20,055 nt of DNA from a virus: IMG/VR virus record IMGVR_UViG_3300044621_002214, positions 1-20,055 of that record; one strand, 5' to 3'. The notes under the pieces were generated by a model. The model did no database searches. It was not told where the DNA came from and saw only the letters and a list, made by a program, of their open reading frames with translations. The translations under genes were made by a program, and so were the position numbers. This document shows positions 18,820-18,869 of the stretch, piece by piece. Position 1 is the first letter of the stretch. Each line of letters begins with the position of its first letter.

Positions 18820-18869
18820 TCCGGAATTACATTTGGGTATTCAGGTAGGTTCGATTCCTGCTTCCGGAA
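18820..18869 (+). ncRNA. tRNA-like minihelix 2 (no anticodon arm)
   Basis: Acceptor-like TCCGGAA (18820-18826) pairs perfectly over 7 bp with TTCCGGA (18862-18868), discriminator A18869. An 18-nt linker carries TTTGGGTATTCA, close to the linker of element 1. The T-stem GTAGG (18845-18849) with CCTGC (18857-18861) holds a canonical T-loop TTCGATT. CCA is not encoded, and D-stem and anticodon arm are missing. Both stems differ from element 1 yet stay paired, which supports the fold. A cut after A18869 would leave a CUAACUUAA leader before ATG 18891. Confidence 0.75.

Follow-up and report, generated by a model that had tools for sequence, protein, structure and literature searches.

Anticodon-less tRNA-like elements between genes of a phage operon as possible punctuation of its message, alongside hammerhead ribozymes

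The window, that is, the whole stretch of DNA analysed here, comprises 20,055 nucleotides of the virus record IMGVR_UViG_3300044621_002214. Within it, every gene between 14826 and 19746 points in the same direction. The region has the appearance of a polycistronic early mRNA of a phage, the single transcription unit being deduced solely from gene order. By eye, a hairpin and T-run can be recognized at about 19772–19803, absent from the output of the terminator scan. The features used below are the following.

14763–14796, + strand: putative operon promoter, TTGACA-18-TATGTTTG, Bacteroidota-like (consensus scan and reading, weak evidence)
14962–15393, + strand: gene F7, with hammerhead 1 behind it here and a mini-tRNA in that position in the related contig G006/L008
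15400–15462, + strand: hammerhead ribozyme 1 with an open stem I; predicted cut between the C of GUC at 15456 and the U at 15457
15927–15976, + strand: copy 1 of the mini-tRNA with G73 and C74 (descriptor, fold, comparison)
15999–16520, + strand: 173-aa gene of PHROG 10310 (unknown function), between copy 1 and hammerhead 2
16524–16576, + strand: hammerhead ribozyme 2; predicted cut between the A of GUA at 16570 and the U at 16571
16792–17586, + strand: ParB-like gene of the same operon
17614–18807, + strand: DNA polymerase sliding clamp (beta subunit-like; Pfam PF02768 and PF00712, PHROG 947)
18820–18826, + strand: copy 2 of the mini-tRNA, 5' strand of the acceptor stem, TCCGGAA (read directly, descriptor, alignment)
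18827–18844, + strand: copy 2, D-arm-like linker of 18 nt, TTACATTTGGGTATTCAG; TAC at 18828–18830, loop ATTTGG at 18831–18836 and GTA at 18837–18839 in the minimum free energy (MFE) fold of the whole element
18845–18861, + strand: copy 2, T-arm GTAGG TTCGATT CCTGC with a 5-bp T-stem containing one T-G pair
18862–18870, + strand: copy 2, 3' strand of the acceptor stem TTCCGGA (18862–18868), discriminator A18869 and C18870, the equivalent of C74
18891–19007, + strand: ORF of 38 aa that follows copy 2 and is conserved in three related contigs (G001–G003)

Copy 2 begins 12 nt past the stop codon of the clamp gene and ends 22 nt upstream of the ATG at 18891. The preliminary description of this DNA had placed a tRNA-like element behind a clamp gene, with a perfect 7-bp acceptor stem, a single G-U pair in the T-stem and the T-loop TTCGATT. 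We confirmed all of these features at the positions listed, and the Pfam domains identify the clamp. The end that the description gave, 18869, is the discriminator base. Copy 1 (15927–15974) reads TCCTGCT / CCCTGGTTGGGATTCAT / TCGGG TTCAATC CCTGA / AGCAGGA and lies between a stop codon at 15918 and the ATG at 15999. Its acceptor stem differs from that of copy 2 and is nevertheless fully paired, just as had been claimed. Thus, repeated tRNA-like units stand between genes of the same strand, which is what a punctuation system requires.

Using a strict descriptor written after the element had been seen (7-bp acceptor, 5-bp T-stem, TTCRANY loop, linker of 5–40 nt), we found only two matches on both strands of the window, copy 1 and copy 2. 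The number expected by chance, estimated from 300 Markov-shuffled windows, is 0.013 per window. The folding energy of copy 2 is unremarkable (z of -1.41; 21 of 200 shuffles fold equally well), and so the case rests on conservation and covariation. ARAGORN called no tRNA. A search of Rfam at gathering or relaxed thresholds gave no match to the mini-tRNA, and no tRNA-like family was returned.

The element has the 7-bp acceptor joined to a 5-bp T-stem with a TTCRANY loop that is expected of a tRNA, as well as the stacked acceptor and T-arm of about 12 bp with a T-loop expected of a pre-tRNA-like substrate. Neither reading nor folding revealed an anticodon arm: the linkers of 17–19 nt give no 5-bp stem with a 7-nt loop. 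Instead, D-like stems of 3–4 bp are predicted in copy 1 (CCC-TGGTT-GGG), in copy 2, in a third copy of a related contig (G001 c3, GCCT-GTCGG-AGGC) and in the phage contig L069 (GACC-AATTGGC-GGTC), with GG in the loop or at its end in each. When the linker is folded alone, the stem is stable in all of them except copy 2, where it appears only if the element is folded as a whole; the same TAC/GTA pairing is present in the relative G006/L008. The folds of L021 and L363 contain no linker stem. In tRNA, the GG of the D-loop meets the T-loop at the elbow; such a role in mini-tRNAs is inferred. In general, the linker is a substitute for a D-arm or D-loop, usually containing GG. We also considered whether it is a relic of the anticodon loop and favored the D-arm, given that a number of linkers fold into D-like stems with GG. 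Since the linker is often predicted to fold into a D-arm with a GG loop, the mini-tRNA is, on the predicted folds, best described as a tRNA minus its anticodon arm. The preliminary description had also regarded the TTGGG...TTCA linker as conserved. This is true within the present phage group and in part for contig L021, and it does not hold elsewhere. A pattern anchored on TTGGG mostly retrieved tRNA-Pro, with the anticodon loop TTTGGGA.

Relatives were retrieved by the clamp protein, by the ParB-like protein and by DNA pattern. Six related viral records were seen, namely G001, G002, G003 and G006 as well as the near-identical contigs G004 and G005, and each has the element behind its clamp gene, making seven with the window. 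G006 retains it even though its clamp gene is divergent and another gene follows. The acceptor of copy 2 varies among relatives as TCCGGAA/TTCCGGA, TCCGGGA/TTCCGGA, TCCGGGA/TCCCGGA and TCCGGAT/ATCCGGA, so that pair 6:67 occurs as A-U, G-U and G-C, and pair 7:66 as A-U and U-A. In an alignment of seven sequences, 98.8% of the cells pair, and the covariation score is 0.452 compared to 0.186 after shuffling and at most 0.143 in slid registers. A larger alignment, fitted to the model and biased in its favor, has changes on both sides in 10 of the 12 pairs. The covariance model itself was limited to the seven sequences, because the first alignment of all sequences misplaced the acceptors of elements with short linkers. 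L168, which resembles an attachment site, and the elements of L104 and L102, which are larger degenerate tRNAs, were left outside the core set.

The model of the window group matched other phages, unrelated ones among them, and a Bacteroidota chromosome. Outside its training set, it found L069 (E of 4e-5), L063 (1e-4), G001 c3 (0.007) and G006 cA (0.01); G001 c3 (TTCCCGT..ACGGGAA) and the cA copy of G006/L008 were also recognized by eye and pattern. A pattern consisting of the T-arm plus CTAA, with no acceptor required, returned L061, L063, L070, L074 and others, and several of these matches have a matching 5' acceptor strand 7–28 nt upstream of the T-arm. In the contig G009 (L196), one operon has four elements within 2.3 kb; one of them has its acceptor immediately next to the stop codon, and another contains the stop codon inside the acceptor. 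Three of 296 Bacteroidota genomes were matched (L363, L364 and L365). In L363, a stop codon, the element, a 21-nt leader and an ATG follow one another between two genes. L364 lacks a clear gene arrangement. L365 (G052:C3 3350–3680, a Bacteroidota chromosome) contains a tandem array of degenerate tRNA-like repeats, and behind every repeat come a hairpin and a T-run. The predictions that further copies should exist and that their stems should covary in homologous spacers were thus borne out: compensatory changes preserve the pairing, which supports the idea of a conserved RNA shape. A blastn search of the operon against named phages gave no match, and protein searches returned only distant clamps and one terminase.

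The strongest functional clue is the hammerhead ribozymes in neighboring spacers, which the preliminary description had not seen in connection with this element. A structural scan shows that both hammerheads of the window have the CUGAUGA..GAAA core, three stems and an NUH cut site, and their folding z-scores are -3.38 and -2.70, respectively. Hammerhead 1 matches the Rfam family RAGATH-1-hammerhead with 28.8 bits, below the gathering score of 56.3, and hammerhead 2 has no match in Rfam. Because the scores are below the Rfam cut-off, the assignment rests on the structural descriptor. Hammerhead 2 is kept in G001 and G002, and its upstream genes differ among contigs; across four contigs, copy 1 precedes three different genes. 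In the window, F7 is followed by hammerhead 1; in G006/L008, the F7 homologue (73% identity) is followed by the mini-tRNA cA, the downstream genes being different. Two unrelated contigs, L094 and L167, which were retrieved by the hammerhead pattern and not by the mini-tRNA, also combine a mini-tRNA with hammerheads in one operon.

To compare the two kinds of element, we measured the leader from the predicted 3' cut to the ATG, taking the known site for hammerheads and the position after N73 for mini-tRNAs. In the window, the leaders are 22 and 21 nt for the hammerheads and 23 and 21 nt for the mini-tRNAs. Four further hammerheads, making six of type I checked in all, have leaders of 21–23 nt. 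Other mini-tRNAs have leaders of 21–25 nt or, less often, of 29–50 nt; those exceeding the values of the window measure 24–34 nt, with two near 50 nt. Leaders of 21–23 nt are as expected if both kinds of element determine where the following message begins. They could also merely reflect the room needed by the ribosome. For several hammerheads, the distances from stop codon to element were not used, the automatic stop being the TGA of the ribozyme core in another frame; separate gene ends were used.

The bases that follow the acceptor were compared with tRNA genes of the presumed host. The CCA end assists RNase P of E. coli. In Bacteroidota genomes (L333–L362), C74 follows the discriminator in 76 of 77 tRNA genes, and CCA is encoded in just seven of them, which suggests selection on C74 in precursors. 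The mini-tRNAs, like most of these genes, have no CCA end. N73-C74 is A-C in copy 2 and G-C in copy 1, which matches the presumed-host tRNA genes, and every main example of the mini-tRNA keeps C74. The invariant CTAA behind N73 results in part from the choice of pattern, and for this reason we claim C74 alone. The host itself is inferred and is probably a member of Bacteroidota.

RNase P reportedly cleaves, efficiently and at the correct site, model hairpins consisting of an acceptor plus a T-arm, as well as several phage RNAs and mRNAs (PMC11143913). Hence, we propose that host RNase P and RNase Z split the message. The element, standing after a stop codon and before the A-rich leader of the next gene, would be mistaken for a pre-tRNA by the tRNA maturation enzymes of the host. 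The expected cuts are one at the 5' end of the element, made by RNase P, and one behind the discriminator base, made by RNase Z or a different enzyme that trims 3' ends. The upstream message would then end soon past its stop codon, and the separated downstream message would begin with a clean leader of about 21–23 nt. In neighboring spacers, the hammerheads would have the same effect and need no enzyme of the host. Since the mini-tRNAs occupy the same kind of place as the hammerheads, they probably mark host cut sites. We therefore consider it probable, and not established, that mini-tRNAs are punctuation of polycistronic phage mRNA directed by RNase P and RNase Z and interchangeable with hammerheads. 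Structure, covariation, placement, predicted leader lengths, N73-C74 and the hammerhead swap are observed; cleavage, the identity of the enzymes and any effect on expression are inferred, and there are no transcript or cleavage data. The unremarkable folding energy, the longer leaders of some mini-tRNAs, the missing CCA end and the merely inferred host also weigh against the proposal. For the broader idea, an exchangeable punctuation code in early mRNAs of phages probably of Bacteroidota, where host-cut mini-tRNAs and hammerheads fill the same slots and fix the distance from 5' end to start codon, the balance tips only slightly in its favor.

It is possible, although we think it unlikely, that the elements are decaying phage tRNA genes or remnants of integration sites, which have lost the anticodon arm and have no function. 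Whole and partly degenerate tRNAs do occur in similar spacers of other phages, so some of the elements could be decaying tRNAs, and some matches, such as L168, resemble the tRNA ends of attachment sites. However, acceptor pairs that change on both sides and stay paired disfavor decay, and pairing of the 5' acceptor strand would serve no purpose in a relic. The element also persists behind the clamp gene in the seven records, and at least two copies with different stems are present per operon. An attachment-site remnant should lack the 5' half, whereas here the 5' acceptor strand is present and covaries; scanning neighboring proteins against Pfam and PHROG revealed no integrase. We regard as equally unlikely a stable cap that protects the upstream 3' end or the downstream 5' end, or slows ribosomes or polymerase, without processing by tRNA enzymes. 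A compact stem directly behind stop codons and before A-rich leaders could indeed insulate such a boundary, but a plain hairpin would suffice for this, and the conserved T-loop, the GG of the D-like loop, N73-C74 and the exchange with hammerheads would remain unexplained.

Even less support can be given to the idea that the final product is the mini-tRNA, acting as a small RNA that baits tRNA-handling enzymes or defence nucleases. From established tRNA biology, we infer that a tRNA-like elbow with an acceptor could bind many tRNA-handling proteins; yet the element offers an anticodon nuclease no anticodon arm, and the strict placement between genes, the leader length and the hammerhead swap are not accounted for. 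The finding of the same element flanked by different genes across contigs might point to a recombination junction for the exchange of gene cassettes, similar to attC of integrons. This is very improbable: the elements retain features specific to tRNA and differ in their stems from copy to copy, so that they share no recombination sequence, and hammerheads are found in the same positions. Chance hairpins, which only the folding z-score of -1.4 would favor, can be considered refuted by the expected number of strict matches and by the covariation given above.

Punctuation by mini-tRNAs has partial parallels among known systems. In mitochondria, tRNAs punctuate polycistronic transcripts and are processed by RNase P and RNase Z. 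The phage elements would likewise release mRNAs through tRNA processing of structures between genes; the mitochondrial tRNAs, however, work in translation, while the mini-tRNAs belong to a phage operon and, because the anticodon arm is missing, can serve processing only. Model hairpins such as AT1, cut at the correct site in vitro, have a nearly identical minimal acceptor, T-stem and T-loop (PMC11143913); they are laboratory constructs, whereas mini-tRNAs are natural, repeated, lack CCA and have a D-arm-like linker. Phage transcripts are already known as RNase P substrates, namely C4 antisense RNA of P1/P7, M3 RNA and T4 gene 32 mRNA, but the same source describes no repeated intercistronic element with a T-loop and D-like arm that is exchanged with ribozymes (PMC11143913). 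Hammerheads are known from phage intergenic regions and polycistronic RNAs, and multiple ribozymes can flank single genes (PMC3088659). Those of the window would share self-cleavage between genes and differ in alternating with mini-tRNAs and being replaced by them. Theta ribozymes of gut phages, whose hosts are mostly assigned to Bacteroidota, combine a ribozyme with a tRNA and have been proposed to trim the 3' trailers of real (suppressor) tRNAs (PMC10879173); in contrast, neither the mini-tRNA nor the hammerhead described here yields a working tRNA. We found no literature on anticodon-less intercistronic phage tRNAs or on their exchange with hammerheads, although subscription papers and preprints were not covered.

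If the proposed punctuation is correct, the mini-tRNA would be a natural minimal RNase P/RNase Z tag used for mRNA processing only, which shares its operon with ribozymes doing the same job. This suggests why phages may carry intergenic hammerheads, a purpose that the 2011 survey left open for its arrangement, and one route by which phage tRNA genes may be kept after their role in translation ends. It also provides an easy test of the way in which viral mRNA is shaped by tRNA enzymes. Engineers release RNAs from long transcripts with tRNAs and hammerheads, and the phage operon would be a natural parallel to this.

Several other structures were noted during the searches. Seven loci (L101, L102, L114, L148, L156, L167 and L179) carry two or three type III hammerhead folds each, one of those in L101 being above the Rfam threshold, and several of them have a gene-start leader directly downstream. 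A tRNA-Leu-like element with an acceptor, D-arm and T-arm and no recognisable anticodon arm (L062 12108–12210, - strand; L209 2125–2228, - strand) lies upstream of a gene with the leader TTTAAAACC. A perfect hairpin, GTGTCTTT(G/A/C)AAGACAC, occurs between genes in three contigs, mostly beside tRNA-like elements (L196 at 1146, 2931 and 3943; L167 at 3301; L102 at about 5640, - strand). The pattern scan of genome contigs was swamped by a dispersed cyanobacterial repeat, GCCGGGGGTTCAAACCCCCGGCTAATAGCTAAAGTCGGTTAAAACCGACT, which forms two varying but paired hairpins in Hormoscilla, Laspinema and Oscillatoria (L214–L317).
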